Virus record (IMG/VR): IMGVR_UViG_3300025009_000162
Location: 1-47,408 of that record
Source: a virus
Reading direction: 5' to 3' (one strand)
Length of the DNA stretch: 47,408 bases
In this document: in pieces, positions 25,564-46,067 of the stretch
How the letters are laid out: each line of letters starts with the position of its first letter
How positions within the stretch are numbered: the first letter of the stretch is position 1
The notes under the pieces: generated by a model
Database searches by the model: none
The model's input: the letters and a program-made list of their open reading frames with translations, nothing else
What the model was told of the DNA's origin: nothing
Translations under genes and position numbers: made by a program

Positions 25564-26136
25564 ATGTGGAAAATAGCGAAAGAATTTGAATTTGATTATG
25601 GTCATCGAGTATGGAGCCAAACTCTAAATTGTGATTTTAGTTTAGATAATAAATGTGTATGTAGGCATCAGCATGGACATCGAGGCATGATAAGAGTATA
25701 TTTATCAAGTAAAGAATTAAAAGATGGAATGGTGACCGATTTCAAACATCTTAATTTTGTGAAAAAATTTATAGACGATGTATTGGATCATAAAATGATA
25801 TTAGATACTAATGATCCTGCATTTAATCATTTTTATCCTTTGCTTGCTTTTGATAAAAATTGTGGAGAACAATTTGATAAATTATTTGAATATCATAAAG
25901 AAGGATATTATACTCCGTGGATGGATAACATAATAAAAGAAGACATTCATATTCAAGATGTCTATAATGGATTGGTATTAGTTGAATTTGTCCCAACATC
26001 AGAAAATTTGAGTAAATGGTTATTTGATATTATTTCTGATAAATTATCTTCTTTAAATATAAGAGTAGATAGAATTCAATTTTATGAAACTCCAAAATCG
26101 CAGAGTAATTATTATAATCCCAACTCTTATGAATAA
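25564..26136 (+). CDS. queD: 6-carboxy-5,6,7,8-tetrahydropterin synthase (QueD)
   Basis: 190 residues, a T-fold (tunnelling-fold) enzyme. It converts 7,8-dihydroneopterin triphosphate to 6-carboxy-tetrahydropterin, the second step towards 7-deazaguanine. Zinc-binding His are in DYGHRVW and in RHQHGHRG (~34-41); DFKHL and LDHKMIL are the usual following elements; the late Glu is in PTSENLS and the end is YETP. It is longer than bacterial QueD (~120), mostly by an insertion around 85-125. It works with FolE (30669) and QueE (27016) in this window. Confidence 0.9.
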   Translation: MWKIAKEFEFDYGHRVWSQTLNCDFSLDNKCVCRHQHGHRGMIRVYLSSKELKDGMVTDFKHLNFVKKFIDDVLDHKMILDTNDPAFNHFYPLLAFDKNCGEQFDKLFEYHKEGYYTPWMDNIIKEDIHIQDVYNGLVLVEFVPTSENLSKWLFDIISDKLSSLNIRVDRIQFYETPKSQSNYYNPNSYE

Positions 26137-27015: not shown

Positions 27016-27894
27016 ATGCATATAAATTTATCTACAGAGGGCATTTTCCCGATTATATACGACAGCAAAGGAGAAAAAATATTCGACATAAATCCTAATA
27101 CAAATTTATCTTATGAAGGTAGCGTACAAGGGGAGGGTGCTTTGATGGGTGTTCCGAGTTTATTCATTAGAACTTCCGGTTGCAATTTGAGGTGCTTGTG
27201 GCAAAATGACAAATTTTTAGAAACTTGTGATACACCTCATACTTCTTGGAATAATGAAAATTTAAGATATAGAATTGATGAAATCATATCAGTTATAAAA
27301 TATAATACTAAAAATATTAATCATATTGTTATTACTGGAGGCGAGCCATTAATTCAAGCCAAAGCATTAACTGAATTATGTGCGAGAATAAAAACAGAAT
27401 TTGGATATCATATTACTATTGAAACCAACGGAACAATTTTTTATGAACCATTATTAATGCATGTAGATTTGTTTTCAATCTCTCCTAAATTATCAAATTC
27501 AAATCCAACAAAAGAAAAAATTCAAGAATATAATTCTACATATAATAAGAATATTAAGACAGATGTAAAACATGAAGATAATAGATATAATTCATTATCT
27601 TTGTCATCGTATGTAAATTGGAATAAATTAGAAAAGCAACAAAATAAATGGAGAAGAAGATTACAATTAAAATTTGTTGTTTCTTCAGAATCAGATATTA
27701 AAGAAATAAAAGAAGATTATATAGATAAATTACCAAATATTTGTAATGAAGATATTTATTTAATGCCCCTTGGAATGACTCCAGAAACATTGAATATAAC
27801 TACAAATTTGGTATTGAATGAATGTATAAAAAATAATTGGAATTTTACTGGTAGATTACATATTAATCTATTTAAAAGTAATTTTGGAGTATAA
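27016..27894 (+). CDS. queE: 7-carboxy-7-deazaguanine synthase (QueE), variant cluster spacing
   Basis: 292 residues, a radical SAM enzyme. It turns 6-carboxy-tetrahydropterin into 7-carboxy-7-deazaguanine (CDG). EGSVQGEGALMGVPSLFIR and TSGCNLRCLW are the usual N-terminal signature, and VITGGEP the SAM-binding GGE motif. Cys56, Cys60 and Cys71 would hold the 4Fe-4S cluster. In the usual CX3CX2C form the third Cys comes just after the Trp; here eight residues (QNDKFLET) are inserted, giving CX3CX10C. Other QueE enzymes are known with long loops in this region, so function is likely kept. The C-terminal region is longer than in short bacterial forms. Confidence 0.88.
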   Translation: MHINLSTEGIFPIIYDSKGEKIFDINPNTNLSYEGSVQGEGALMGVPSLFIRTSGCNLRCLWQNDKFLETCDTPHTSWNNENLRYRIDEIISVIKYNTKNINHIVITGGEPLIQAKALTELCARIKTEFGYHITIETNGTIFYEPLLMHVDLFSISPKLSNSNPTKEKIQEYNSTYNKNIKTDVKHEDNRYNSLSLSSYVNWNKLEKQQNKWRRRLQLKFVVSSESDIKEIKEDYIDKLPNICNEDIYLMPLGMTPETLNITTNLVLNECIKNNWNFTGRLHINLFKSNFGV

Positions 27895-30668: not shown

Positions 30669-31310
30669 ATGGAATTATTAAAACATTCAAATGATAACAT
30701 TTTTCTATCCGAAAAAGAAAAAGAACAAAGAATTAAAAAAGTTGAAAAAGCTTATGGCAAGTTTTTAACTGAAATTGGATATGATTGGGAACAAGACCCA
30801 AATATGGCAGGAACACCGTTTAGAGTTGCCAAGATGTGGATAAAAGAAATTGCATCTGGGAATCATAGTGAAGAACCAAAAATTACTGCATTTGATAATA
30901 TAAACAAATACGACGGAATGGTTTTTGAGGGTGGGATAGATGTTAAATCATTATGTTCTCATCACAATTATCCATTTTATGGAAAAGCATATGTAGCATA
31001 TTTAGCTCATCCAGATGGAAAGATAATTGGGTTAAGTAAATTAAATAGAATTGTAGATTGGTTTAGTAGAAGACCACAAGTTCAAGAAAATCTAACAAAT
31101 CAAATTCATGAATATCTTGATAAAGTTTTAGAAAAACATGGTGGCATAGCAGTTCACATTCAAGCAGTTCATACTTGCGTTAGATTAAGAGGAGTTAATC
31201 AAAATGGAGACATGCAAACAACAAAGATGTCAGGTGCATTTTTAGAAAATGATTCACGAGCTCATACAGAATTTTTAGATAAGATACGAAATTCAATACA
31301 TTTAATTTAA
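30669..31310 (+). CDS. folE: GTP cyclohydrolase I (FolE)
   Basis: 213 residues, the normal size. It converts GTP to 7,8-dihydroneopterin triphosphate, the first step of both folate and 7-deazaguanine synthesis. Zinc ligands are visible: Cys and His in SLCSHHNYPF (~96) and Cys in HTCVRLRGV (~170). GLSKLNRIVDWFSRRPQVQE is a hallmark stretch. Because QueD and QueE are in the same window and DpdA lies downstream, DNA base modification is the likelier purpose than folate supply. It has its own promoter. Confidence 0.93.
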   Translation: MELLKHSNDNIFLSEKEKEQRIKKVEKAYGKFLTEIGYDWEQDPNMAGTPFRVAKMWIKEIASGNHSEEPKITAFDNINKYDGMVFEGGIDVKSLCSHHNYPFYGKAYVAYLAHPDGKIIGLSKLNRIVDWFSRRPQVQENLTNQIHEYLDKVLEKHGGIAVHIQAVHTCVRLRGVNQNGDMQTTKMSGAFLENDSRAHTEFLDKIRNSIHLI

Positions 31311-32341: not shown

Positions 32342-35065
32342 ATGTATCAGAACATATATTATAATAGAAATACTAAAATCGTTCATTTATGGGATGATGA
32401 GCAAGGTTATATAGAAATTCCTTATGAACCATATGCTTATAAGAAACATCCTAATGGTGAACATACTTCTTTATATGGAGACAAATTAAAAAAGATTTAT
32501 AATTCTGAAATTGAAAATACTTCTCCCGAATTATTATTTGAAAGTGATGTACACCCAGAAGATAGAATTTTAATTGATTTATACAAAGACAGTTTTGATA
32601 TTAGTAAAAATCATATAATATTATTTCTTGATATTGAAACAAGAACAGAAGGAGGCCCAAGTGAGCCGGAAGATGCTAATCAACCTATCATAGCCATTTC
32701 TTATTCTGTCAATGGTGGGCCAATGACTTGTCTACTATTAAATCAAACTAATTCAGAAACAACAAAATTTGAAGACGGAGAAAACAAGGTAATTTTATTT
32801 GACCACGAATCTGAATTATTAATTTATTTTGTAGATGCTTGGAAAAAAATAAAACCTACCATTATTACGCATTGGAATGGAGATGATTATGATGTACCAT
32901 ATATCATTAATAGAATTACAAAAGTATTATCTATTAATAAAGCTAAAGCATTAAGTCCAATAAATAAAATAGATTATAATAAAAGAGATGAAACTTATAC
33001 AATTGCGGGAGTTAGCAGTTTAGACTATATGAGATTATATAAGAAATATACATTTATTGGTAAACCTTCATATTCACTTGATGCAATTAGTAAAGAAGAA
33101 ATAGGAAGAGGAAAGATAAAATTTACAGGCGGATTTACTGAATTATTTAAAGATCAAAAGAAAACTGTAGAATATGTTAATGAAGACGTTCAATTATTAA
33201 TTGATTTAGATAAAAAATTAAAATTAATTGAATTAACATTATTTATTTGTCACGATGCTCATACTGCATATGATAATGTTTATTCAAATAGTAGAATATT
33301 AGATAATGCTTCAATATTATTTTTAAATTCAAATGGAATAATTGCTCCTAATAGAAAACCAAAACCATCATTAAAATTACAAAGAAATCATTCTACAGGT
33401 GAAGATAAAATATATGTAGATAAAATTATAGATAGAAAAGTAGTTCCATTAAAAGGAGTAATTCAATTAAGAAAATCTAAAACCGCCAAAATATCATTTG
33501 AATATTCTTCATTTGAAGAAAATTATTTTATTTTAGAGTCTTCTCTTGATGAACCATTAAAGAAAGAATGGGAGATGAAAATAGAATTACCCGGTGCATA
33601 TGTTAATTTAGAAGAATCTGGATTGTATGATGATACTTCTTCGATTGACCTTGTGAGTTTGTATCCTTCTATTATTATGACATTAAACATGAGTCCAGAA
33701 ACAAAAATTGGAAGAGTGTTAAATTGGGAATGGGAAATAGAAAAATTATCCGAAATTAAAATTTTTCAAATTGAGTTTGTTGGTGGGATGTTAGAAGAAT
33801 TTTCTTTAGAAAATTTTAATAAATTTATAGAAGAAAGAAAAGTAAAAATTTCTGCGACTGGTATTATGTATGATGGAACTAAAAAAGGATTTATTCCAAG
33901 TATTCTTGAAAAGTGGTTTAATCATAGAGTAGAATCAAAAAATTTAATGAAAAAATATAAGAAAGAAGGAAATGAATATTTAACTCAATTATATTATACA
34001 AAACAATTGACTGAAAAAGTAAAATTAAATTCTTTTTATGGAGTATTAGCATTATCAGTATTTAGGTTTTATGATTTAGATAATGCAGAATCTGTTACTG
34101 CAACTGGCCAAGCTATTATTAAATTTTCTAAAAAATATATAAATATTTCACACGGTGAAAAAACAGCTATATACGAGGATACGGATAGCGTATATTTTAA
34201 ATTACAAAACATTATTAAAGAACAAGATTTATCAAAATTATCAATAGATGAATTTTTAAATTATACCGTTCCGTTCAGTAATAATATAAATGAAAAATTA
34301 AAATTATTTTCTAAATTAATTTTAAAATCTGACAATAATTGGTTAGAATTTAAATCAGAAAAAATTATTAGAACTGCATTTCATCATGCTAAAAAACGAT
34401 ATGCTCTTTGTGTTAAATGGAATGAAGGATTTACCTATACTGAAGAAAATACAAAAGAAGCAGATAAAATATATGATAAAGAAGGAAACTTTTTGGGAGC
34501 ATTAGCAGTAACTGGATTAGATATTGTTCGTTCAGATTTTCCAGAAAGATTTAAAGAATTCATGACTAATATAGTTAAAAAAATATTAGCTAAATTTCCA
34601 AAAGAAGATGTAGATGATTATGTAATAGATTTTAAAACTAATCTCCATAAAGAAAAAATAGAAGATATTTTATTCCCGACAGGTGTTTCAGATGTAGAAA
34701 AATATAAATATGGAAGAAGTAGATTTCATGTAATTACCGGAACTCCTATTCATGTTAAATCTGCTTTATATTATAATGATATGTTAGAATATTTTAATAT
34801 TACTAATTTATCTCCTGTAGGTAATTGGGATAAAATTAAATGGTGTTATTTAAAAGAAAATCCTTTGCAATTAGAAGTAATGGCAATAAAAAATAATAAT
34901 GATAATCCTAAAGAAATTGAAGAGTATATTTTAAATTATATTGATTATGATGCTATGTTTCAAAGTAAATTGCAAGGAAAATTACAAGATTTTTATGAAT
35001 CATTACATTGGGGAATATTACCAGATAGAAATACAAAGAAAATAAATAGTTTGTTTAAATTTTAA
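32342..35065 (+). CDS. DNA polymerase, family B (gp43-like)
   Basis: 907 residues, close to T4 gp43 (898). 3'-5' exonuclease motifs: Exo I LFLDIETRTEGG (~95), Exo II HWNGDDYDVPYI, Exo III YVNEDVQLLIDL. Polymerase motifs: A in SIDLVSLYPS (~435), B in KLNSFYGVLA (~561), C in YEDTDSVYF (~608). The C-terminus reads KKINSLFKF; in T4 and RB69 the polymerase C-terminal peptide binds the sliding clamp, so this tail should do the same with the clamp encoded at 43433. The LicD-like and DpdA-like proteins share this tail. Contiguous with the HD gene upstream. Confidence 0.95.
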   Translation: MYQNIYYNRNTKIVHLWDDEQGYIEIPYEPYAYKKHPNGEHTSLYGDKLKKIYNSEIENTSPELLFESDVHPEDRILIDLYKDSFDISKNHIILFLDIETRTEGGPSEPEDANQPIIAISYSVNGGPMTCLLLNQTNSETTKFEDGENKVILFDHESELLIYFVDAWKKIKPTIITHWNGDDYDVPYIINRITKVLSINKAKALSPINKIDYNKRDETYTIAGVSSLDYMRLYKKYTFIGKPSYSLDAISKEEIGRGKIKFTGGFTELFKDQKKTVEYVNEDVQLLIDLDKKLKLIELTLFICHDAHTAYDNVYSNSRILDNASILFLNSNGIIAPNRKPKPSLKLQRNHSTGEDKIYVDKIIDRKVVPLKGVIQLRKSKTAKISFEYSSFEENYFILESSLDEPLKKEWEMKIELPGAYVNLEESGLYDDTSSIDLVSLYPSIIMTLNMSPETKIGRVLNWEWEIEKLSEIKIFQIEFVGGMLEEFSLENFNKFIEERKVKISATGIMYDGTKKGFIPSILEKWFNHRVESKNLMKKYKKEGNEYLTQLYYTKQLTEKVKLNSFYGVLALSVFRFYDLDNAESVTATGQAIIKFSKKYINISHGEKTAIYEDTDSVYFKLQNIIKEQDLSKLSIDEFLNYTVPFSNNINEKLKLFSKLILKSDNNWLEFKSEKIIRTAFHHAKKRYALCVKWNEGFTYTEENTKEADKIYDKEGNFLGALAVTGLDIVRSDFPERFKEFMTNIVKKILAKFPKEDVDDYVIDFKTNLHKEKIEDILFPTGVSDVEKYKYGRSRFHVITGTPIHVKSALYYNDMLEYFNITNLSPVGNWDKIKWCYLKENPLQLEVMAIKNNNDNPKEIEEYILNYIDYDAMFQSKLQGKLQDFYESLHWGILPDRNTKKINSLFKF

Positions 35066-35101: not shown

Positions 35102-35728
35102 ATGTATATGAAATCAAATTTAAAAATTAAATTGCAAGAGCTTATTCGAGAAGAATATGCACAATTATTAAAAGAAGAGAGTTTAACATTGGGAAGAAAA
35201 GTTGTAATGACACCTGACAACTCTTTTTCTGCTTATAAGCAAAATATTTCAAATTTACCCATCGAAATAGGAAATTTTGTTAATTTACGCAGATTAGATT
35301 TAAGTTATAATAAATTAATAACCCTTCCTCCTGAAATTGGAAATTTAACAAAATTAAAAAAAGTGTGGATAACTGATAATAAATTAAAATCGCTTCCGAA
35401 AGAAATTGGTAATTTAATAAATTTGGAAGAATTATATGTATCCAGAAATGAAATACAAATAATACCTAAAGAAATACAAAAATTAAAAAAATTAGAGTTT
35501 CTACATTTTACGAAAAATAATATTAAAGTAATTCCCAAAGAATTATTTGAATTAGAAAAGTTAGTTAATTTATATATATCTGAAAACGAATTGACCGACA
35601 TTCCAAATGAAATACAAAAATTAAAAAAATTAGAGGTTTTATATATTACTGGGAATAATATACCAAAAAATAGATTGCAAGAAATTAAAAAATTACTACC
35701 CAATGTAAGCATTTATGCCGACTTTTAA
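35102..35728 (+). CDS. Leucine-rich repeat protein, possible capsid-targeted
   Basis: 208 residues. From ~45 to ~195 there are about six leucine-rich repeats of ~23 residues of the type LPxEIGNLxxLxxLxxxxNxL (bacterial or plant-like). They should form a curved protein-binding surface. The N-terminal ~27 residues (IKLQELIREEYAQLLKEE) are an amphipathic helix with LxE-type sites, like T4 capsid-targeting peptides. LRR proteins in phages are unusual; it may be injected and bind a host protein. The start ATG at 35102 is followed by a second at 35108. Confidence 0.8.
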   Translation: MYMKSNLKIKLQELIREEYAQLLKEESLTLGRKVVMTPDNSFSAYKQNISNLPIEIGNFVNLRRLDLSYNKLITLPPEIGNLTKLKKVWITDNKLKSLPKEIGNLINLEELYVSRNEIQIIPKEIQKLKKLEFLHFTKNNIKVIPKELFELEKLVNLYISENELTDIPNEIQKLKKLEVLYITGNNIPKNRLQEIKKLLPNVSIYADF

Positions 35729-35787: not shown

Positions 35788-36135
35788 ATGCAAACAAATA
35801 TAATAATCAATCTTCAAGTTGAAGGGCTTCATTCCTGGCCAGATGCAACTAAAATCGAACCCATTGTTGGATTTTTAGATTTAATTCATAGGCACATCTT
35901 TCATATCGAATGCAAAAAGAAAGTAAATCACGACAATAGAGATATAGAATTTATCAAATTTAAAAGAGAAGTAAAATCTTATTTAGAAGAAAAATTTTAT
36001 TCTAAGCCATTCGATTGCCTTTTATTTGAATCTATGAGTTGTGAAATGATTGCAAAAAAATTATTAGAAAAATTCGATTTAGAATATTGCAAAGTATTAG
36101 AAGACAATGAAAACGGCGCAGAAATAATTAAATAA
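35788..36135 (+). CDS. Possible T-fold (QueD-like) protein
   Basis: 115 residues. The order of elements follows QueD: HSWPDA near the N-terminus, a His pair in IHRHIFHIEC, DIEFIKFKREVKSYL, SCEMIAKKLL, and EDNENGAEI at the end. QueD-family enzymes have HGH, DF..L, TSEN(L/I)A and ET..n.A in the same order. The protein belongs to a set of phage proteins of unknown function as far as I can tell. The likeness suggests the T-fold, but the key zinc ligands differ. A pterin or 7-deazaguanine role is only a suggestion. Downstream of a good promoter. Confidence 0.6.
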   Translation: MQTNIIINLQVEGLHSWPDATKIEPIVGFLDLIHRHIFHIECKKKVNHDNRDIEFIKFKREVKSYLEEKFYSKPFDCLLFESMSCEMIAKKLLEKFDLEYCKVLEDNENGAEIIK

Positions 36136-36140
36136 AAAAT

Positions 36141-36812
36141 ATGAATTGGAAAGAAGTATATAATAATCGAAAAAATAATTATGATTTTTCGGATGTTTCG
36201 GTTGAAAATTTATTAAAGATAAGTGGATATGATAATAAAAACAGTTTTATATCATATAAAGAATTATTATCTTGGATAAATAATCTAAAAAAAGAAATAA
36301 ACTTCAATGAAAAGAACGACACTGTATTAGAATTGTGCTGCGGTGCTGGAGCATTTATAAAAACTTTCAATCCTTTATGGGGCACTGGATTAGATTTTTC
36401 TGAAGATATGTGCAAAATATTTTCTAAAGCAAATCCTTCTTATAATATAATTAATTCAGAAGCATTATTAATTGATGAAACTTTTGATCATATATTCACT
36501 TTTACTGGATTTAATTATTTTCCAAGCAAGGAATACTCAGAAAAAGTATTAAGAAAAATAATTTCATTATCAAGTAAAACCATTTCTATTTTAGATATTT
36601 TAGATGTAGAAAAGGAAAAAGATGAAAAAGAATTTCGTAAAGAAACAATAGAAAATTATGAAGAAAATTATTCAACAATTTCACATCTTTATTATTCAAA
36701 AGATTGGTTTGAAAAAATATTAAAAGAATCAAATGTTACTTGGAAATATATTCCTGGAATAAAATCTTATCATAATAGTCAATTCAGATTTAATTTAGTG
36801 ATTTATAAATAA
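36141..36812 (+). CDS. SAM-dependent methyltransferase, class I
   Basis: 223 residues. Motif I is VLELCCGAGAF (~61-71), followed by an acidic second strand (GLDFSEDM) and IFTFTGFNYF as the fourth strand. No DNA-methylase DPPY/NPPF or cytosine motif is visible; it looks more like a small-molecule or protein methyltransferase. It sits 5 bases after the T-fold-like gene and 12 before the nucleotidyltransferase fusion, so it may belong to the same pathway. Confidence 0.78.
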   Translation: MNWKEVYNNRKNNYDFSDVSVENLLKISGYDNKNSFISYKELLSWINNLKKEINFNEKNDTVLELCCGAGAFIKTFNPLWGTGLDFSEDMCKIFSKANPSYNIINSEALLIDETFDHIFTFTGFNYFPSKEYSEKVLRKIISLSSKTISILDILDVEKEKDEKEFRKETIENYEENYSTISHLYYSKDWFEKILKESNVTWKYIPGIKSYHNSQFRFNLVIYK

Positions 36813-36824
36813 AAAGAAAAGAAT

Positions 36825-38639
36825 ATGCAAGCAATTATTTTAGCAGCAGGAATGGGTAAAAGATTAGGAAAGTTTACTCAAGAAAATACTAAATGCATGG
36901 TAAAGGTGAATGATATAACCATTATCGAAAGAATAATTAATAATCTATTATATGTTGATATTAAAGACATAAAAATTGTAATAGGATATAAAGGTGATAT
37001 TTTAAAAGAATTTATATCAGAAAAATATCCAGAATTAAATATCACCTATATCTATAATAATGTATATGATAAAACCAATAATATTTATTCTTTATTTTTA
37101 GCTAAAGAATATTTAAAATCTGATGATACAATACTATTAGAATCTGATTTAGTTTTTGAGCCAAAATTATTAGTAGATTTAATTGAAAATAAAAATAAAA
37201 ATTTAGTTGCTGTTTCAAAGTTTGAACAATGGATGGATGGAACGGTAGTCACATTAGATGAAAAAACCACAACTATTCTAAATTTTATTCCAAAAAAGAA
37301 ATTTGATTTTAATGATATAAATGATTATTATAAGACAATTAACATTTATAAATTTAGTAAAGAATTTAGTGAGAAGTATTATATTCCATTTCTGTTAGCT
37401 TATTGTGAATCATATGGAAATAATGAATACTATGAAGAAGTTTTAAGAGTAATAGCTTTTTTAGAAAGATCTGATTTAAATGCTCTAATAGTTAATAAAA
37501 ATCAAAAATGGTATGAAATAGATGACATACAAGATTTAAATATAGCGGAAACATTATTTGCAGAAAAAGATAATTTATTATCTAAATATAATAGAAGATA
37601 TGGCGGATATTGGAGATTTGAACAATTATTAGATTTTTGTTATTTGATTAATCCATACTTCCCAACAGAAAAATTTTATAAAGAAATTGAATTAAATCTT
37701 AAAACTTTAATTTCTCAATATCCTTCCGGTTTTTCTACTCTACAAGTTTTAGCTTCAAAAATGTTTAATATTCCTAAAGATAATATTTTAATAGGAAATG
37801 GAGCAGCTGAATTAATAAACGCATTATTACCTGGTATCAAAAGAAGAACTGGAATAGTTATACCTACATTCGAAGAATATTCAAATAGAATTCCTTCTGA
37901 TTTGTTATTTACGTTTAAACCAAAAACATCTGATTTTAAATGTGGAGTAGACGATTTAATCGAATTTGTCGAAAAATCTAAGCTAAGAATATTAATATTA
38001 ATAAATCCAGATAATCCGAGTGGCAATTTCATATCAAGAAAAGAAGTATTGAGATTATTAGATTATCTTTTAAAAGATGATATCAGTTTAGTTTTAGATG
38101 AATCATTTATTGATTTTGCTGATGTCAATGAATCATTGTTGGATTCTGATATTTTAGATAAATATCCAAATTTAGTGATAATTAAAAGCATATCAAAATC
38201 TTATGGTGTTCCAGGATTAAGATTAGGAATATTGGCTTCTGGAGATGATGAATTTATATCTAATTTAAAACCAAAATTGCCTATTTGGAATATAAACTCG
38301 ATTGCAGAATTCTTTTTACAAAATATTTCAAAATATAAAACTGAATACGAATTAGCATGTGATAAATTAAAAGAAGAAAGAAATAGATTTTTTAAGGAAT
38401 TATCGGAGATTCATTATTTACGAGTTATACCGTCTAATTCAAATTATTTTTTATGTGAAATATTAACCGAGATAACGGCGACTGAATTAGCTTCTTATCT
38501 ATTATCAGAAAAATATTATATAAAAGATTGTTCAAAAAAACTCGGTTTATCAGATAAATATATTCGAATAGCTATCAGAAATAAAGAAGATAATGATTTA
38601 TTATTACATGCATTAACATATTGCTCAGAAATATTTTGA
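36825..38639 (+). CDS. Nucleotidyltransferase-aminotransferase fusion
   Basis: 604 residues, two domains. Residues 1-~240: sugar-phosphate/choline-phosphate nucleotidyltransferase (QAIILAAGMGKRLGKFTQEN, TKCMVKVND, LLESDLVF), the LicC-like type that makes a CDP- or NDP-activated compound. Residues ~255-600: PLP-dependent fold type I, HisC/CobD-like (IGNGAAELINALLPG, INPDNPSGN, LDESFIDFAD, SISKSYGVPGLRLGIL with the PLP Lys at ~456). CobD-like enzymes decarboxylate phospho-amino acids, HisC-like ones transaminate; the sequence does not decide. A fused enzyme that makes and then activates an amino-alcohol phosphate would fit the LicD-like transferase downstream. Substrate unknown. Confidence 0.85.
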   Translation: MQAIILAAGMGKRLGKFTQENTKCMVKVNDITIIERIINNLLYVDIKDIKIVIGYKGDILKEFISEKYPELNITYIYNNVYDKTNNIYSLFLAKEYLKSDDTILLESDLVFEPKLLVDLIENKNKNLVAVSKFEQWMDGTVVTLDEKTTTILNFIPKKKFDFNDINDYYKTINIYKFSKEFSEKYYIPFLLAYCESYGNNEYYEEVLRVIAFLERSDLNALIVNKNQKWYEIDDIQDLNIAETLFAEKDNLLSKYNRRYGGYWRFEQLLDFCYLINPYFPTEKFYKEIELNLKTLISQYPSGFSTLQVLASKMFNIPKDNILIGNGAAELINALLPGIKRRTGIVIPTFEEYSNRIPSDLLFTFKPKTSDFKCGVDDLIEFVEKSKLRILILINPDNPSGNFISRKEVLRLLDYLLKDDISLVLDESFIDFADVNESLLDSDILDKYPNLVIIKSISKSYGVPGLRLGILASGDDEFISNLKPKLPIWNINSIAEFFLQNISKYKTEYELACDKLKEERNRFFKELSEIHYLRVIPSNSNYFLCEILTEITATELASYLLSEKYYIKDCSKKLGLSDKYIRIAIRNKEDNDLLLHALTYCSEIF

Positions 38640-38663
38640 AATTAGAAATATTTTTTGTATAAT
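38635..38663 (+). promoter_or_regulatory. Phage promoter, TTTG-N19-TATAAT
   Basis: TTTG (38635-38638) lies in the last codons of the previous gene; 19 bases later TATAATTC (38658-38665), 28 bases before the ATG at 38691. It would drive the dehydrogenase, LicD, glycosyltransferase, DpdA, clamp and clamp-loader genes as one unit. Confidence 0.55.
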
Positions 38664-38690
38664 TCTGTTATAAAGTTTAAATAAAAATAT

Positions 38691-39566
38691 ATGAAAGGAT
38701 TAATAGTGGGTCTTGGAATAGGATCTGTATATTTAGAACAATTGAATTTATTAGGATTCAATGTAACGACAGTAGATATAGATAAAACAAAAAATCCAAC
38801 CTTTTTAAATATAGAGGATGCATTGAAAGAAAAATATGATTTGTCTATTATTTGCACTCCAAATTATTTGCATTTCGAACAAGCCAAATTATTACAACCT
38901 GCTTCTAAAAATATTTTAATAGAAAAGCCTGGGTTTGAGTCGTTGGATATTTATAATCATTTTATAAATACTTTTAAAGACACAAAATTTTTCATTGTCA
39001 AAAATAATATATATCGTCCAGAATTAACTTACATAAAAAGTATTATAGATTTATTTGAAAATTCTATAGAATATGTAAGTATTAATTGGTTAAATTCAAA
39101 TAGAACTCCTTATCCGGGAGGATGGTTTACAAATAAAGAAAAAAGTTTTGGTGGAGTGTGTCATGATTTGATGCCACATTTATTACATCTTTTTTATTCT
39201 TTAAATGGAAATAAATTATTAGAGCCAAAAAAAATAAACAAATTTCAGCGTTGGAATTATACTGATGTATTAACAACTGAATATGGAAATGTTAATTCTA
39301 TAAATCCAGTGTATGATGTAGACGATACTTGCCAAATTACTTTTGAAGACAAATTCTTATATAAATTAAATGCTGCTTGGAAAACAGATAAAGAGAATGA
39401 TATCAGTATAAATATTAATTTGAAAGATGGAAGAAAATTTAGATATGAATTTGGATTGTGTCCAAATGAAATGTATGGTAAAATGATTTCTGAAATTATG
39501 TCGGACAATAATTATTCAAAACATATCTTATTAGACACTTGGTTACATAAAATAATAAATTCTTAA
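38691..39566 (+). CDS. Gfo/Idh/MocA-type oxidoreductase
   Basis: 291 residues. The N-terminal Rossmann fold is seen in GLIVGLGIGSVYLEQL (GxGxxS type), TVDID, and IICTPNYLHFEQA. EKPGFESL is the conserved EKP loop with the catalytic Lys, and GGVCHDLMPHLLHLF the catalytic D/H stretch. Members use NAD(P) to oxidise or reduce sugars and related alcohols. It lies 3 bases before the zinc-dehydrogenase-like gene, so the two may act in turn on one substrate. Confidence 0.85.
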   Translation: MKGLIVGLGIGSVYLEQLNLLGFNVTTVDIDKTKNPTFLNIEDALKEKYDLSIICTPNYLHFEQAKLLQPASKNILIEKPGFESLDIYNHFINTFKDTKFFIVKNNIYRPELTYIKSIIDLFENSIEYVSINWLNSNRTPYPGGWFTNKEKSFGGVCHDLMPHLLHLFYSLNGNKLLEPKKINKFQRWNYTDVLTTEYGNVNSINPVYDVDDTCQITFEDKFLYKLNAAWKTDKENDISININLKDGRKFRYEFGLCPNEMYGKMISEIMSDNNYSKHILLDTWLHKIINS

Positions 39567-39569
39567 AAA

Positions 39570-40487
39570 ATGGAAATAAAATTAATGCACAGTTATGGTT
39601 CAAAGGATATAAACAATTATTTTTTGGATAAACCAGAACCAACAGACAATCAAATAGAAGTAGAAACAAAAATGACAGGCATTTGCAGAAGTGATATAGC
39701 TGCGTATAATGGGTGGGAAAATGCAATGCCTCTTGGAATGTTTGGACATGAAGGAATTGGAATTGTATCTAAAATAGGCAAAAATATTAAAGATGTAGAA
39801 GTTGGGGATTATGTTGCAACATGGAGCGATCCGGCATATGGAAAATATTATAATGCAAATTCAAATCAATATGTTAAAATTCCAGAAATAAGTTCAAAAT
39901 ACATTATGCAGCCGGTGGCATCTGCAATAAATATATTTGATAAAACCTTAAAATATATGGAATTTTTAAATTATATAGGAGAACCGATATTATTAATTGG
40001 AACAGGTTTTATGAGTTTAGTTATTGCACAGTTGTATGATAATATTCATGTATTAGGTAATTCAAATAAATCGAAATGGGAAGAAATAAAAATAAAAACA
40101 TATAGTTCTTTTAAAGAATTACCACAGACAAAATATAAAGTCATTATAGATTTAAGTAGCAAGGCAGATAATTATTATAAAATATCAGAAGAACTTGGAG
40201 AAGTAGAAGCATTAATTACATATGCATCTACACCATTTACACCTGTTACCACAAATTTTTTCAATAATAATTGGAATTGTCATACATTTATTATGCCGAG
40301 TCCAAGAAATAAAGATTTTAATTCTATAATGAAACTTGGAGTTGATTACATTATAGAAAACAAATTAAAAACAGATTTTTTATGGTCTGAATCATATAAA
40401 GCTTTTGATTTAGATGATATGAAAAAAGCTTTTGAGGACGGATCTATAAGAAATGATAAATATCTTAGGGGTTATTTTATATTTTAA
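39570..40487 (+). CDS. Zinc-type alcohol dehydrogenase-like (MDR) protein
   Basis: 305 residues, shorter than the usual ~340-350. TGICRSDIAAYNG (Cys and Asp zinc ligands), FGHEGIGIVSKIGKNIKDVE with GDYV are standard MDR elements, and ILLIGTGFMSLVIAQLY the NAD(P)-binding GxGxxx region. The structural-zinc four-Cys loop of many alcohol dehydrogenases is not present. Probably oxidises or reduces a hydroxyl on the same compound as the neighbouring oxidoreductase. Confidence 0.83.
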   Translation: MEIKLMHSYGSKDINNYFLDKPEPTDNQIEVETKMTGICRSDIAAYNGWENAMPLGMFGHEGIGIVSKIGKNIKDVEVGDYVATWSDPAYGKYYNANSNQYVKIPEISSKYIMQPVASAINIFDKTLKYMEFLNYIGEPILLIGTGFMSLVIAQLYDNIHVLGNSNKSKWEEIKIKTYSSFKELPQTKYKVIIDLSSKADNYYKISEELGEVEALITYASTPFTPVTTNFFNNNWNCHTFIMPSPRNKDFNSIMKLGVDYIIENKLKTDFLWSESYKAFDLDDMKKAFEDGSIRNDKYLRGYFIF

Positions 40488-40490
40488 TGT

Positions 40491-41183
40491 ATGGCTACAA
40501 TCACAGATAAAACACTTGCAAAATATGGATCAGAAGAATTATTTCATGATGTGCATCGAGACATGTTGAAAAGATTTTTTCTTTGGGTAAAAGATAATAA
40601 TATTCCGATTTGTTTGATGTTCGGAGGATTTTTAGGATATTGTAGAGAAAATCGAATAATTCTATGGGATCATGACATCGATGTTGGGATATTACAAGAT
40701 GATTTTCATTTATTGACAGACGAAGTATTATCAAAATTACCTGAATATGGATTTGATAAACCAGATTTTTCTAATAAAAAATATCATTATGTAGAAGATA
40801 ATTTTAATGGTGAATATTTTAGAATATATAATTCTAATTTAAAAACTAAATATGAATTGATTGAAATTTTTCCTTTAAAAAATTATGAAAATACGGATAA
40901 TATTTTTTATAAATTCTGGTTTCAATATAAGCAAGGAAAAAAGAAAATATATCAAGATCTAATGTGGGTGGATTTTTATGATTTTAAAATACAAATTCCT
41001 CAAGATTTAGAGGCCGCATTAATGCATCAATATGGAGAAAAATGGCACATGCCAAAGAAAAGTAAACAATATTTAAAAAACATTGATTCTGAATATCAAT
41101 CTTTAATTGTAAATAGATTAAAAGAATTGAAAATTGGACCTTATGAACACTATGAAAAGATAAATAATTTTTTTAAATTTTAA
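40491..41183 (+). CDS. LicD-like transferase with clamp-binding-type C-terminus
   Basis: 230 residues. CLMFGGFLGYCRENRIILWD followed by HDIDVGI (~40-66) is the LicD/fukutin-type nucleotidyltransferase-fold signature (GTLLGxxR...WDDDxD). LicD enzymes transfer phosphocholine or similar groups from a CDP carrier. The C-terminus is EKINNFFKF, almost the same as the polymerase (KKINSLFKF) and DpdA (KKINNLFKF) tails. This points to clamp binding and hence action on DNA, unlike surface-acting LicD. The start used is at 40491; a short A-rich leader follows the previous stop. No acceptor is known. Confidence 0.82.
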   Translation: MATITDKTLAKYGSEELFHDVHRDMLKRFFLWVKDNNIPICLMFGGFLGYCRENRIILWDHDIDVGILQDDFHLLTDEVLSKLPEYGFDKPDFSNKKYHYVEDNFNGEYFRIYNSNLKTKYELIEIFPLKNYENTDNIFYKFWFQYKQGKKKIYQDLMWVDFYDFKIQIPQDLEAALMHQYGEKWHMPKKSKQYLKNIDSEYQSLIVNRLKELKIGPYEHYEKINNFFKF

Positions 41184-41187
41184 TTTT

Positions 41188-42249
41188 ATGGTATATATAG
41201 TAGACATTGAACCTGTAGAAACAAGATATACATCACAATGGAAAAAATATTTCCCTGAAATATTATATGGGAGATATAATTGTGAAGTAACAAATATTGG
41301 AGCAGAAGTCGAAGAATCAAAACAAACTTCAAAAGGAGCCTTCTTAAATTTCGGAGCAACAAATATTTATAAAAGTATTCAAACTCAAAAAATATCTGAG
41401 TTATTTGTAAATAATATCATCCAAGATAACGATCATATTATTTTTACAGATGCATGGCACCCTGGAATAATCAATACCAGATATATGGTAGACTTGTTAA
41501 AGAAAAGAGTAACATTACATGGATTGTGGCATGCTGGTTCATATGATCCATATGATTTTTTAGGAAGAGAAATAGAAAATAAGGAATGGTCATATAATTT
41601 TGAAAGAGCTATATTTTGTTCTTTAGATTATAATTATTTTGCCACACGATTTCATATAGATTTATTTAAAAAAGAAATATTTGCCAATTCGTATGAAAAT
41701 ACGTATATAGATAAAAAAATAGTTTTGACAGGCTGGCCGATGGAATATATGAAGGAAGAATTAAAAGAATATAAAAATATACCTAAAGAAAATATTATTT
41801 TATTTCCTCATAGATTGTCATCAGAAAAACAGGTAGGTATATTTAAAGATTTAGAAAAAAGTTTACCAGAATATAAATTTGTAGTTTGTCAAGAAAAACA
41901 ATTAACAAAGCATGAATATCATACTTTATTAGCTAAATCTAAAATGGTATTTTCTGCAAGTTTACAAGAAACCCTTGGAATAAGTATGTATGAAGGAGTT
42001 ATTTTAAAATCAATTCCTCTTGTTCCAAATAGGTTGAGTTATGCTGAAATGTATCCTTCATTTTTTAAATATGATTCAAATTGGACTTTGAATTTTGAAA
42101 ATTATGTATTATATAAATCACAATTAATAGATTTGATTCGAACCAAAATGGAGAATTATGACAGAAAAGAAGTTCAATCATATTTACAATCATTAGAACA
42201 ATATTTAGAAGTAGATTATTTTAATTTCAACAATTTCAAATATGAATAA
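41188..42249 (+). CDS. GT-B type glycosyltransferase
   Basis: 353 residues. The C-terminal half has the GT4-like layout: IILFPHRLSSEKQVGIFKDL, FVVCQEKQ, YHTLLAKSKMVFSASLQETL and GISMYEGV with the sugar-nucleotide-binding Glu. The N-terminal half (FTDAWHPG, LHGLWHAGSYDPYDF) would form the acceptor domain. The stop overlaps the DpdA start by 8 bases, so the two are translated together. This may glycosylate DNA (as T4 does) or a surface glycan; the neighbourhood favours DNA but does not prove it. Confidence 0.8.
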   Translation: MVYIVDIEPVETRYTSQWKKYFPEILYGRYNCEVTNIGAEVEESKQTSKGAFLNFGATNIYKSIQTQKISELFVNNIIQDNDHIIFTDAWHPGIINTRYMVDLLKKRVTLHGLWHAGSYDPYDFLGREIENKEWSYNFERAIFCSLDYNYFATRFHIDLFKKEIFANSYENTYIDKKIVLTGWPMEYMKEELKEYKNIPKENIILFPHRLSSEKQVGIFKDLEKSLPEYKFVVCQEKQLTKHEYHTLLAKSKMVFSASLQETLGISMYEGVILKSIPLVPNRLSYAEMYPSFFKYDSNWTLNFENYVLYKSQLIDLIRTKMENYDRKEVQSYLQSLEQYLEVDYFNFNNFKYE

Positions 42250-43426
42250 AAATTTTATTTATTTTCCGTCTTTATCTTCTGGAGCGTCTGCTTCTTGGTT
42301 ATTAAAAAATGAATATTTAACTGAAACAGTTTCTTCAAGATTTTATGACAAAGAACATACTCCTCCACAATTTTATCATCCTTATTTTTTGTTAAGTGCT
42401 GGACACAATTATAAAGAATTTGAGTTAAGAAAAAAATATGGATTGGAAGATTCTTTTGTAATAGGAGATAGCGGCGGGTATCAAATTGCTACAGGTGCAA
42501 TTAAATGGGAGAAATCTGTAAGAGAAACAATTTTTAAATGGCTTGAAAACAATAGTGATATAGCATTAAATTTAGATATTCCTCCAAGAAAAGAATATGA
42601 CGGTAAGTTTCAGGAATGTTTTGATATTAGTTTAGATAATTTTAAATATTTTGAACAAAATCAATCTGGTAAAACTAAATTTTTAACGGTATTGCAAGGA
42701 AATTCATTAGAACAATATAAATTTTGGTATAATGCAGTAAAGGATTTTGAATTTGGAGGATTAGCAATTGGTGGTTGCATGCACAATCTTGGAAGATTAA
42801 TTATGGTATTTGCAATGTTGTTAGAAGAAAAAGAATTAGAAAAAAAGAGAAATAATTATATTCATATTTTAGGAATGTCTGGATTAAATGATTTTCTTGT
42901 TATAGAAATGATTCAGAAATTTTTAAATAAGAAATTTGGAAACAAATTACAATTGAGTACAGATAGTTCTTCTCCGAATCTTGCAACTGTTTTTGGACAA
43001 TATTATTATGATGTAAATTGGGATAAATATTCTTTTAAAAGTTTACATATTCATAGAGAATTAAATGATGAAATAGAATTAGCATGTAAATTTCATTCTT
43101 GTCCCGCATGTGAAGGAAGAACATACAAAGATTTTCAAGAATGGAAGACAAAAGATTATATGCATATGACTCATCATAATATGTTTGTTTATATAACTGC
43201 AGTAAAACAGATATATTCTTTAATTGATTCTCCAAAAGATGTATTAAAAGATTTATTACCAAATGATTATTATAATCTATATAATATAATAGAACAAATA
43301 TTTGAAAGTGATTCACCGCTTGCCACATATAAAAAATATGTTAATCAAATAGAAAAAGTAACAAGATTAACATACGCAATAGAAACAACAGATTCAAAAA
43401 AAATCAATAATTTATTTAAATTTTAA
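42242..43426 (+). CDS. dpdA: DpdA-like DNA 7-deazaguanine transglycosylase
   Basis: 394 residues, a relative of tRNA-guanine transglycosylase. Motifs: VIGDSGGYQIATG (general acid Asp ~77), LNLDIPPR, LTVLQGN, GLAIGGC (base-binding GGxAxGG), and STDSSSP (nucleophile Asp ~241). A partial zinc site follows (HSCPACEGR then a His-rich stretch). Phage DpdA enzymes exchange guanine in DNA for a 7-deazaguanine; a tRNA enzyme would be less likely in this operon with FolE, QueD and QueE. The C-terminus KKINNLFKF equals the polymerase tail but for one residue, which suggests tethering to the clamp encoded 6 bases downstream. Confidence 0.85.
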   Translation: MNKNFIYFPSLSSGASASWLLKNEYLTETVSSRFYDKEHTPPQFYHPYFLLSAGHNYKEFELRKKYGLEDSFVIGDSGGYQIATGAIKWEKSVRETIFKWLENNSDIALNLDIPPRKEYDGKFQECFDISLDNFKYFEQNQSGKTKFLTVLQGNSLEQYKFWYNAVKDFEFGGLAIGGCMHNLGRLIMVFAMLLEEKELEKKRNNYIHILGMSGLNDFLVIEMIQKFLNKKFGNKLQLSTDSSSPNLATVFGQYYYDVNWDKYSFKSLHIHRELNDEIELACKFHSCPACEGRTYKDFQEWKTKDYMHMTHHNMFVYITAVKQIYSLIDSPKDVLKDLLPNDYYNLYNIIEQIFESDSPLATYKKYVNQIEKVTRLTYAIETTDSKKINNLFKF

Positions 43427-43432
43427 AAGAAT

Positions 43433-44152
43433 ATGAAAAAATCAAAAATCAGTAACTTTTTATCAAAGTATAATTTAGGAGGAATTGTAGAAGAAACAAT
43501 TTGGACAATAGAAGACAAAAATCTTTTGGTAAAATTTAGAACAGAAGACAAATCTGTAATGGGAGTCGGACTATTAAAAGGTATGGATATACCTAATAGC
43601 GAATTTGGTGTATATAGCACAAGCAAAATGATAAATGCTATAAGTCCATTAGATGAAGAAATTAAGGTAGAGTTAATATCAGAAGGAAATACTTTTACTA
43701 ATTTAATTTATTCTGATAATGATGTTATTAATAAAAGAACTTTAACCGCTACTTCAGTCATTGAAAATACATTTCAAGGGTTTGATATGCCAGAAGATGT
43801 ATTTGATACAGTAATAAAAATAGATGCTAATTTTTTAACAAAGTTTAATAAGATTAAAAATTTAGAATCTGATAATATTGGGATTAAAATTAATAACAAT
43901 AATACTGCTACCTTTATTTTAAATTATAGCGAAAATAATGTTGATACAGGTAAGTTTGATATTAATATTGAAAAAGGAAATACAACGATTAAACCAGTAT
44001 TATTTAAATTAGATGTAATTACCAGAATTTTATCTGCAAATAAAGATTTTACTTCTGGAGTGATTAAATTTTGTGGAGAACACGGAGTTTTAAAATTTGT
44101 GTTTGGTTCTGAAGATATTAATTTTATGTATTTTACAGTTGCATTGCAATAA
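43433..44152 (+). CDS. DNA polymerase sliding clamp (gp45-like)
   Basis: 239 residues, near T4 gp45 (228). Two similar halves (residues ~1-115 and ~120-239) with alternating beta strands, as in trimeric T4-type clamps. Position right before the gp44-like clamp loader supports the call. It ties the polymerase to DNA and, in T4, also activates late transcription with gp55. In this phage it may also hold DpdA and the LicD-like protein by their shared C-terminal peptide. Confidence 0.85.
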   Translation: MKKSKISNFLSKYNLGGIVEETIWTIEDKNLLVKFRTEDKSVMGVGLLKGMDIPNSEFGVYSTSKMINAISPLDEEIKVELISEGNTFTNLIYSDNDVINKRTLTATSVIENTFQGFDMPEDVFDTVIKIDANFLTKFNKIKNLESDNIGIKINNNNTATFILNYSENNVDTGKFDINIEKGNTTIKPVLFKLDVITRILSANKDFTSGVIKFCGEHGVLKFVFGSEDINFMYFTVALQ

Positions 44153-44161
44153 AAATAAATT

Positions 44162-45112
44162 ATGGCAGAAATAAAAAATAGTTTGATATGGGACGTAAAA
44201 TATCGTCCAAAATCGTTCGATGATTATATTCAAAGTAATGAACAATCAGTAGAAAAATTCAAAGAATATATTAAAGACGGCAGCATGCCACATATTCTTC
44301 TACATGGGCCGGCAGGTGTGGGCAAATCAGTTTTGGCAGAATTATTGGTCAATGCAATCGATTGTGATTTATTGAGAATAAATGCAAGTGATGAAAATAA
44401 TGTAGAAACAATTAGGACAAAGATCAAAAATTTTGTTACCACGATTAGTGTGGGCAATAAAATAAAGGTTGTTCTATTAGAGGAAGGAGATCATATCAGT
44501 ATGCAAGCTCAAGGTATATTGAGAGATATATTAGAAAAATATATAGAACATTCAAGATTCATTTTAACTTGTAATTATTATGATAAAATCATTCCTGCAA
44601 TAAAGAGTAGATTTAAAAAAGGAACATATGAAATTAAATCTCCAGGTAAACCAGAAATAGCTAAATTTGTAACTGCTATTATGGACAAAGAAGGAATTGC
44701 TTATGATTTAAATGATGTTGTAAAAATAATAAATAATGAATATCCTGATATTAGATCGATTTTAGGTACTCTTCAAGTAAACATATTAGATAATAAATTA
44801 ACATTAAGTGATTCTATTCTTATTGAATCTGATTATATGAGTAAGATATTATCTATAATGAAAGATAGCAAGGTTAAAAAATATGACGCATATGTAGAAA
44901 TAAGAAAAGTAATATCTGGGTCAAGAGTAAGTAATTTTCAACCGTTTATAGATTATTTATTTAAGAATATAGATGATGTTACAGATCAAATAGAATTGAA
45001 AGCCGGAATCATATTGATATTAGCTGAAACTCAAGTACAGGATTCTTTTAGTATAAATAAGGAATTGAATATTATGTCGGCAATTATTAAAATTTTAGGT
45101 GAAATAAAATAA
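44162..45112 (+). CDS. Clamp loader large subunit (gp44-like)
   Basis: 316 residues, near T4 gp44 (319). AAA+ ATPase: WDVKYRPKSFDDYI at the start, Walker A HGPAGVGKSVLAE (~48), then VVLLEEGDHISMQ (~104) at Walker B, FILTCNYYDKIIPAIKSRF with the sensor Asn and the arginine-finger SRF motif. Walker B reads LLEEGD where T4 has IDEFD, so the usual first Asp is Glu. It opens and loads the gp45 clamp together with gp62. Confidence 0.92.
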   Translation: MAEIKNSLIWDVKYRPKSFDDYIQSNEQSVEKFKEYIKDGSMPHILLHGPAGVGKSVLAELLVNAIDCDLLRINASDENNVETIRTKIKNFVTTISVGNKIKVVLLEEGDHISMQAQGILRDILEKYIEHSRFILTCNYYDKIIPAIKSRFKKGTYEIKSPGKPEIAKFVTAIMDKEGIAYDLNDVVKIINNEYPDIRSILGTLQVNILDNKLTLSDSILIESDYMSKILSIMKDSKVKKYDAYVEIRKVISGSRVSNFQPFIDYLFKNIDDVTDQIELKAGIILILAETQVQDSFSINKELNIMSAIIKILGEIK

Positions 45113-45623: not shown

Positions 45624-46067
45624 ATGGGAAAGTCAATATTTGATCATATCAAAAACATGAGTATAGATAAGGTAGATCCAAGTGAATATACCGAAGAGGA
45701 TTGGAAAAGCTTTTCTCCGTATATGATTGCACAATGGCTATCAATGGATTTAAGTCTTATTGAATTTGTCAATCAAATACAAAGACATACTATTGGTCAA
45801 TTATCAAACGAATTAGTATATAAAATTTATTTAGGATTTTTAGAAAAGAAACAATATTGGATAAAATACATTAGAGGAGATAAAGAAGATAAATATTCTC
45901 CAGAATTAGTAGATTATTTATCCAGATATTGGAAAACATCAAAACGAATAGTCAATACATATTTACCAATATATTTTAATACAAATGGTGGAACTGAGGA
46001 AATTAGAAATATATTGAAAGAATATGGAGTAGAGGAAAAAGATATAAAGAAATATATCTCACATTAA
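45624..46067 (+). CDS. Clamp loader small subunit (gp62-like)
   Basis: 147 residues; T4 gp62 is 187. SPYMIAQWLSMDLSLIEFVN, a middle stretch YLGFLEKKQYWIKYIRG, then a helix pair ending KEYGVEEKDIKKYI follow the layout of gp62-type proteins in T4-like and cyanophage genomes (a P(Y/F)xI..(C/W)LS start, a K-K-x-(R/Y)-x-K-(W/Y) centre and a repeated-Lys end). Position two genes after gp44 fits. It has its own near-leaderless promoter and a palindromic terminator at its stop. Confidence 0.65.
   Translation: MGKSIFDHIKNMSIDKVDPSEYTEEDWKSFSPYMIAQWLSMDLSLIEFVNQIQRHTIGQLSNELVYKIYLGFLEKKQYWIKYIRGDKEDKYSPELVDYLSRYWKTSKRIVNTYLPIYFNTNGGTEEIRNILKEYGVEEKDIKKYISH

Follow-up and report, generated by a model that had tools for sequence, protein, structure and literature searches.

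The virus record IMGVR_UViG_3300025009_000162 (47,408 bases, 25% G+C), analysed over its whole length and called the window below, carries a block of sugar and phospho-alcohol enzymes resembling those of surface coats that ends in DpdA, a DNA guanine transglycosylase. Because this block comes with two polymerase-type clamp tails, one on DpdA and the other on a LicD-family phosphotransferase, its most likely role is to decorate guanines in the DNA of the phage itself during copying. The locus as a whole is in our judgement probably a phage DNA-hypermodification system coupled to replication and acting through the mechanism proposed below. The evidence is good for a pathway of 7-deazaguanine DNA modification that includes a conserved sugar arm, and from the remaining genes we infer that a phospho-amino-alcohol is placed on the phage DNA. 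For the precise end product we make a tentative proposal: a 7-deazaguanine carrying a sugar to which an amino-alcohol of the phosphoethanolamine or phosphocholine type is joined by a phosphodiester, built at the fork by a clamp-riding transglycosylase and LicD. We would sooner expect the true product to differ from it in some respect.

Layout of the locus

An earlier note, made from the letters of the window, had proposed that a methyltransferase (MTase) gene and the six genes after it form one pathway adding an activated group to a 7-deazaguanine base in phage DNA. The seven-gene layout held in every detail: all genes, including the preceding MTase, lie where the note had placed them on the + strand, the gaps from MTase through the nucleotidyltransferase-aminotransferase (NT-AT), Gfo, MDR and LicD to the glycosyltransferase (GT) are 12, 51, 3, 3 and 4 bases, and GT and dpdA overlap by 8 bases. 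The family calls (nucleotidyltransferase-aminotransferase, Gfo/Idh/MocA, MDR, LicD, GT-B and DpdA) were likewise borne out by Pfam, AlphaFold/Foldseek and conserved aspartate residues. The marked genes are thus real, while the pathway proved larger, FolE, QueD and QueE upstream and a QueD-like gene at 35788 having been overlooked. The genes concerned are the following.

25564..26136, + strand: canonical QueD (6-carboxytetrahydropterin synthase); TIGR03367 E 2.3e-15, PTPS E 2e-27 and 7e-29
27016..27894, + strand: QueE-like radical SAM protein (7-carboxy-7-deazaguanine synthase); PHROG 2076 QueE-like 9e-50, TIGR04322 9e-22 (under its cut-off), Radical_SAM above cut-off
30669..31310, + strand: FolE (GTP cyclohydrolase I); NCBIfam FolE 2.4e-53 (under its cut-off), PF01227 1.4e-50 (above cut-off), PHROG 2197 3.5e-59
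32342..35065, + strand: family-B DNA polymerase (PolB), clamp-type tail in the last 9 codons; PHROG 262 E 5e-158
35788..36135, + strand: second, divergent QueD-like T-fold protein; AlphaFold (pLDDT 96), Foldseek and synteny
36141..36812, + strand: class I S-adenosylmethionine MTase; Methyltransf_25 8.6e-7
36825..38639, + strand: NT-AT, a LicC-like cytidylyltransferase (about residues 1-245) fused to a CobD-like pyridoxal-phosphate-type phospho-amino-acid decarboxylase/aminotransferase (about residues 255-598); NTP_transferase and aminotransferase I/II
38691..39566, + strand: Gfo/Idh/MocA oxidoreductase; Pfam 7e-7, phage orthologues adjoin MDR
39570..40487, + strand: MDR (zinc alcohol-dehydrogenase type) oxidoreductase; ADH_N 3e-11
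40491..41183, + strand: LicD-family phosphotransferase, tail in the last 9 codons; Pfam LicD at residues 34-221, E 6e-12
41188..42249, + strand: GT-B (GT4-type) glycosyltransferase of a family found beside DpdA; weak GT group 1 match, AlphaFold/Foldseek, synteny
42242..43426, + strand: DpdA (DNA guanine transglycosylase), tail in the last 9 codons; TGT Pfam 4e-4, under cut-off
43433..44152, + strand: sliding clamp (gp45-type); family members match PHROG 223 'DNA polymerase processivity factor' (best 2.6e-13), adjoins the gp44/gp62-like clamp loader
44162..45112, + strand: clamp loader large subunit (gp44-like); Walker-type AAA sequence and synteny
45624..46067, + strand: clamp loader small subunit (gp62-like); PHROG 225 E 6.7e-11

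The window thus encodes a family-B DNA polymerase, a sliding clamp and gp44- and gp62-like clamp loaders, together with a tail sheath. A PDB sequence search with the clamp family gave no match, and its identity came from PHROGs. The neighbours of the operon are polB, the clamp, the clamp loader and dpdA, which is not the setting of a surface-glycan locus. In the 51-base gap between NT-AT and Gfo lies TTGAAA-16-TATAAT, an 11/12 match and among the two best sites of the region, although promoter-like sites are overall no commoner there than in shuffles.

Polymerase-like tails on DpdA and LicD

PolB, LicD and DpdA of the window end in KKINSLFKF, EKINNFFKF and KKINNLFKF, respectively, and at the residue frequencies of the window the expected number of C-terminal KIN[SN][LF]FKF endings among its 71 open reading frames (ORFs) is 3e-7. 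The clamp-type tail that the earlier note had seen on LicD is therefore real, and the same type of tail, which it had overlooked, is present on DpdA. Tails were surveyed in 165 related loci with 2848 ORFs of at least 80 residues, a set that takes in the window's own copy (L001) and near-duplicates. A generic tail pattern, written as a regular expression, matched 81 of 98 DpdA and 60 of 65 PolB proteins and also the LicD of the window and a single MDR; of the 2135 ORFs that belong to none of the labelled families it matched 3. The same expression at shifted positions gave a background of 0.24%. The tails vary by lineage, with DpdA/PolB endings such as FNKFFKF/KFFSFG, TQFGNLFEEV/TFNNLFDFGG and NNNDLFGW/NNTDLFDW, the last pair being that of Vibrio phage 2.275.O. 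The PolB and DpdA tails of one phage have a mean similarity score of 17.7, whereas the other families that have three or more members score 4-10. Over 63 distinct PolB-DpdA pairs the score is 16.8, compared with 13.9 +/- 0.49 in 500 permutations (maximum 15.4). The LicD tail, which sits in frame beyond the Pfam LicD domain match, scores 28 against the PolB tail, while the scores of 1392 other ORFs all stay below 26.

There is precedent in T4, where the gp45 clamp is bound by the C-termini of gp43, gp55 and gp33, which are highly similar and can stand in for one another, and in RB69, the last 11 residues of whose polymerase have been crystallised on the clamp (PMC2988020). The window resembles T4 in having a short hydrophobic extreme C-terminus that matches the phage's own polymerase, but the tails of the window are on DNA-modifying enzymes, whereas those of T4 are on the polymerase and transcription factors. 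Taken together, the tails strongly suggest that DpdA and LicD are tethered to the sliding clamp.

Two further endings were considered and rejected: the MDR end RGYFIF fits the tail expression, yet it belongs to the MDR domain, whose end is conserved in relatives, and the GT end FNFNNFKYE, considered as a degenerate tail, is lacking in relatives. At the DNA level, [LF]FKF followed by a stop occurs four times in the window against 0.9 expected; since one of the four copies lies away from any gene end, preference was given to statistics at the protein level. A broad scan of long contigs for the tail at the DNA level was uninformative relative to its control. In the 349-kb genome of Vibrio phage 2.275.O, the tail DNA pattern was found at the ends of PolB and DpdA and in three other places, one of which is the end of a 74-residue ORF (MG592671 118713-118937). 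This ORF ends in LFEW, a polymerase-like tail, and may encode a small protein that binds the clamp. ORFs of about 460 residues that resemble glycosyltransferases were also noticed near polB in DpdA phages (L300:155-1537; L274:3-386, a copy that is cut; L227:4640-6025). Two of them end in the polymerase-like tails ETDNPGSLFDFD and EKSDPSSLFTFE and the third in NNSITDLFS, and judging by these sequences they are possible further clamp-tethered DNA glycosyltransferases.

Synthesis and insertion of the modified base

With FolE, QueD and QueE present, the phage pathway should reach at least 7-carboxy-7-deazaguanine. FolE was found in 19 of 19 related records, PTPS/QueD in 20 of 21 and radical SAM in 13 of 19. 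QueC was not found in the window, which is a fragment, or in 16 environmental relatives, and within that set occurred only in Vibrio phage 2.275.O; partial QueC matches were obtained in 3 of 10 records of a second set. The inserted base may be either 7-carboxy-7-deazaguanine (or a derivative) or preQ0 supplied via a host QueC. Despite the weak Pfam TGT match of DpdA, its aspartates D76 (in DSGGYQ, a DSGGxQ motif) and D241 (in TDSSSP) are invariant in nine divergent phage homologues. The DpdA homologue of Vibrio phage 2.275.O adjoins genes annotated as 7-cyano-7-deazaguanine reductase, queuosine biosynthesis and GTP cyclohydrolase I (FolE).

The QueD-like protein at 35788-36135 has a T-fold, with Escherichia coli QueD (4ntk) as the top Foldseek match (E 4.8e-6, TM 0.73, 17% identity), and in related loci its gene is kept beside GT and DpdA. 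In Cellulophaga phage phiST its homologue lies one gene (MazG-like) after QueD-QueE-FolE. The phage modifications dCDG and dDG, as well as a 7-carboxy-7-deazaguanine decarboxylase named DpdL, have reportedly been described, and as a tentative lead the QueD-like protein may belong to the DpdL family. In one related locus a small ATPase/kinase-like ORF (L095:10320-10805) overlaps the end of the QueD-like gene; an ATPase-annotated gene is found there in phiST too, and an extra pathway step is possible.

The sugar arm

The GT of the window has a clear GT-B/GT4 fold despite its weak Pfam GT group 1 match (AlphaFold pLDDT 93.6; Foldseek BshA 6n1x, E 1.2e-9). The order PolB, QueD-like, GT, DpdA, clamp, gp44 is shared by dozens of environmental phages. 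In almost every locus a member of the GT family is the direct neighbour of DpdA, and this holds also for the isolated Pseudomonas phage PA5oct, which has the order DpdA-GT-QueD-like. A GT kept so tightly beside DpdA most simply acts on the DpdA product.

The two dehydrogenases were followed through a scan of viral contigs with the MDR family, in which the best 80 of 426 relatives were kept and 78 loci analysed. DpdA is present in 70 and Gfo in 74 of these 78 loci, many of which have the order clamp-DpdA-Gfo-MDR-(172 residues)-QueD-like-GT, and the GT family and QueD-like gene are usually present. This co-occurrence with DpdA speaks against a surface-glycan role and ties Gfo and MDR to DNA modification; the pattern that the earlier note had named as damaging to its proposal, with sugar genes away from dpdA and beside receptor or O-antigen genes, is for Gfo and MDR mostly not what the loci show. 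PA5oct carries the whole core (FolE, QueD, QueE, DpdA, GT, QueD-like, Gfo and MDR), with a run of Gfo, MDR and the 172-residue gene separate from DpdA, and matches to MDR, DpdA and the QueD-like protein were obtained in Paride and other P. aeruginosa phages. The conserved family of about 172 residues, encoded in jumbo DpdA phages with MDR on one side and the QueD-like gene on the other (L250:8885-9397; PA5oct EST35_0364, L302:5879-6385), has no Pfam match and is absent from the window. The idea of one 7-deazaguanine-based DNA-hypermodification pathway is thus supported by FolE, QueD and QueE, by the dpdA-linked Gfo, MDR, GT and QueD-like genes, and by the clamp tails.

It could be argued that the base is never glycosylated, with DpdA inserting 7-carboxy-7-deazaguanine or plain 7-deazaguanine while Gfo, MDR and GT serve to produce a small molecule or act on a different nucleotide or a protein. 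The retention of FolE, QueD and QueE where QueC is missing would fit this reading, as would the position of the QueD-like protein near QueD-QueE-FolE in phiST and the reported dCDG, dDG and DpdL, yet the association of GT, Gfo and MDR with DpdA runs counter to it, and we regard it as unlikely.

The phospho-amino-alcohol arm

The N-terminal part of NT-AT (604 residues) has as its top match the CTP:phosphocholine cytidylyltransferase LicC (1jyk, 3e-12), followed by a cytidylyltransferase-transaminase fusion (6pd1, 3e-11). Its C-terminal part matches a threonine-phosphate decarboxylase-like protein (6oux, 4e-45) and CobD (1lc5, 2e-36) ahead of HisC; the NCBIfam CobD model gives 8e-54, with HisC close behind and all under curated cut-offs. 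Full-length bacterial homologues, 45-51% identical, occur in gut-type bacteria, and some of them adjoin CDP-glycerol-type phosphotransferases or a choline-kinase/cytidylyltransferase gene. Given this anatomy and these neighbourhoods, a CDP-amino-alcohol is the natural reading, from sequence, of the donor used by LicD, three genes upstream of which the LicC-like domain is encoded. LicD itself has the motif GG-x-LG...R...WD-x-D-ID, with GGFLGYCRENRIILWDHDIDVG aligned with the FKRP motif, and matches the Mf1 cholinephosphotransferase model at 7e-16, under its cut-off. No match to the MTase (36141-36812) was found in a PDB sequence search, and its N-methylation of the amino-alcohol is speculation.

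Gene order in relatives is conserved for QueD-like, GT, DpdA and clamp and for Gfo and MDR, but not for NT-AT and LicD, which were found in this genome only; the earlier note's suggestion that phages with this DpdA might always carry the LicD-like gene therefore fails. Searches of phages, plasmids and viral contigs gave no close relative of LicD, and bacterial relatives are only distant. A motif scan yielded a few other LicDs in viral contigs, none with a clamp tail or with DpdA nearby, a stricter motif scan found none, and NT-AT was found in no viral contig.

This distribution invites the reading that two unrelated modules have come together. The DpdA/GT/QueD-like core would then modify DNA, whereas NT-AT, LicD and MTase would be a host-derived cassette decorating a host surface glycan or lipid with a phospho-amino-alcohol (receptor masking), and LicD would have picked up its tail incidentally, through recombination with the 3' end of polB or dpdA. 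The bacterial NT-AT homologues in exopolysaccharide-type clusters with Glyphos_transf genes favour it, and so does the closest functional model of LicD, a lipid cholinephosphotransferase. It does not sit well with an in-frame polymerase tail that outscores all other ORFs, with the tailless LicDs of other viral contigs, or with the embedding of the genes between MTase/Gfo/MDR and GT/DpdA at gaps of 3-51 bases, and we give it a low probability. An ordinary surface-glycan or receptor-modification operon lying next to dpdA by chance is far less probable still: LicD, Gfo, ADH and GT4 annotations are typical of capsule and lipopolysaccharide clusters, but in many phages the sugar genes occur in linkage with polB, dpdA, the clamp gene and the QueD-like gene, and LicD bears a clamp-type tail.

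Proposed mechanism and points against it

In the mechanism that we favour, the observed FolE, QueD and QueE would make 7-carboxy-7-deazaguanine or a derivative. DpdA, by analogy with T4, would hook onto the sliding clamp by its C-terminal tail, which would derive from that of the DNA polymerase by copying or resemble it by convergence, and would exchange guanine for this 7-deazaguanine in new DNA at the replication fork. The Gfo and MDR dehydrogenases would supply an unusual sugar or its precursor, which the GT-B transferase, syntenic with dpdA, would add to the modified base. An extra branch in this phage only would provide a cytidine diphosphate (CDP)-activated amino-alcohol, probably CDP-ethanolamine or CDP-aminopropanol: the CobD-like domain would decarboxylate a phospho-amino acid to ethanolamine- or aminopropanol-phosphate, the fused LicC-like domain would add cytidine monophosphate, and the MTase is possibly involved. 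Clamp-tethered LicD would then transfer the phospho-amino-alcohol onto the DNA-borne sugar, giving a zwitterionic, phosphodiester-decorated guanine that may guard against restriction or other DNA-targeting defence.

Several points weigh against this mechanism in whole or in part. The absence of QueC leaves the inserted base uncertain, and plain 7-deazaguanine offers no obvious handle for a sugar. Common descent accounts for part of the covariation between PolB and DpdA tails. The DpdA of PA5oct has no tail and many DpdAs of the jumbo group have a degenerate one or none, so the tail is an adaptation rather than a requirement for the DpdA family. In T4, clamp binding by the alpha-glucosyltransferase is not the main determinant of its glucosylation share (PMC13216743). 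On sequence grounds, the CobD-like domain of NT-AT could be a transaminase rather than a decarboxylase. With NT-AT and LicD in one genome and no other phage, finally, the phospho-amino-alcohol branch has no comparative support beyond the tail and rests on anatomy, tail and position.

Other observations in the window

A leucine-rich-repeat protein of 208 residues (35102-35728), encoded between the polymerase and the QueD-like gene, was not found in related loci. Three TnpB-like ORFs (IS200/IS605 accessory type; a weak match, tested for the third) lie at 7781-9115 (-), 11053-12393 (+) and 46190-47407 (+, running off the window end); they are mutually 73-86% identical and scattered in one phage fragment. 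PADLOC gave no matches, and Rfam and tRNA scans found nothing.

Relation to known systems and significance

Phage 7-deazaguanine DNA modification by FolE, QueD, QueE and QueC with DpdA or DpdA2 is known, for example, from phage 9g, CAjan and Vibrio nt-1 (Hutinet et al. 2019, PMC6884629), in a paper that mentions neither glycosyltransferases nor clamps. The window shares with these systems FolE, QueD, QueE and a transglycosylase of the TGT type in which the two catalytic aspartates are present, and differs in that no QueC or amidotransferase was seen and in having a GT-B and a second QueD-like gene by DpdA, Gfo and MDR, a clamp tail on DpdA and the CDP-amino-alcohol/LicD branch. The T4 alpha-glucosyltransferase, a clamp-binding enzyme (Sommer 2004, confirmed in PMC13216743) that co-purifies with gp45 (PMC13216743), is likewise a DNA-modification enzyme on a sliding clamp (in the window, a prediction) and a GT acting on a modified base; however, the T4 base is hydroxymethylcytosine and the enzymes differ, whereas the window is predicted to tether a transglycosylase and LicD by a polymerase-like tail. 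Bacterial LicC/LicD phosphocholine decoration and the Mf1 cholinephosphotransferase pair a cytidylyltransferase with a LicD-fold transferase using a CDP-alcohol, as the window, judged by homology, would do, but here the cytidylyltransferase is fused to a putative CobD-like decarboxylase and LicD is clamp-tailed and lies in a replication locus. The 7-deazaguanine/DpdA core is of a known kind, while the novelty lies in an obligate sugar arm, in the proposed tethering of DpdA to the clamp and in the LicD branch, which is confined to this genome; neither arm nor the tethering was found in the literature searched, the coverage of which is incomplete.

PA5oct, Paride and relatives with the core or matching genes are in culture, which makes the chemistry directly testable. 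If the mechanism is right, 7-deazaguanine would serve as a platform for sugars and phospho-alcohols, a new principle in phage DNA modification, and a second would be that enzymes for base exchange and decoration are brought to the sliding clamp by a polymerase-like tail. It would also provide a general sequence test, in which an enzyme annotated as 'surface' whose C-terminus matches the polymerase tail of its own phage probably acts on DNA.

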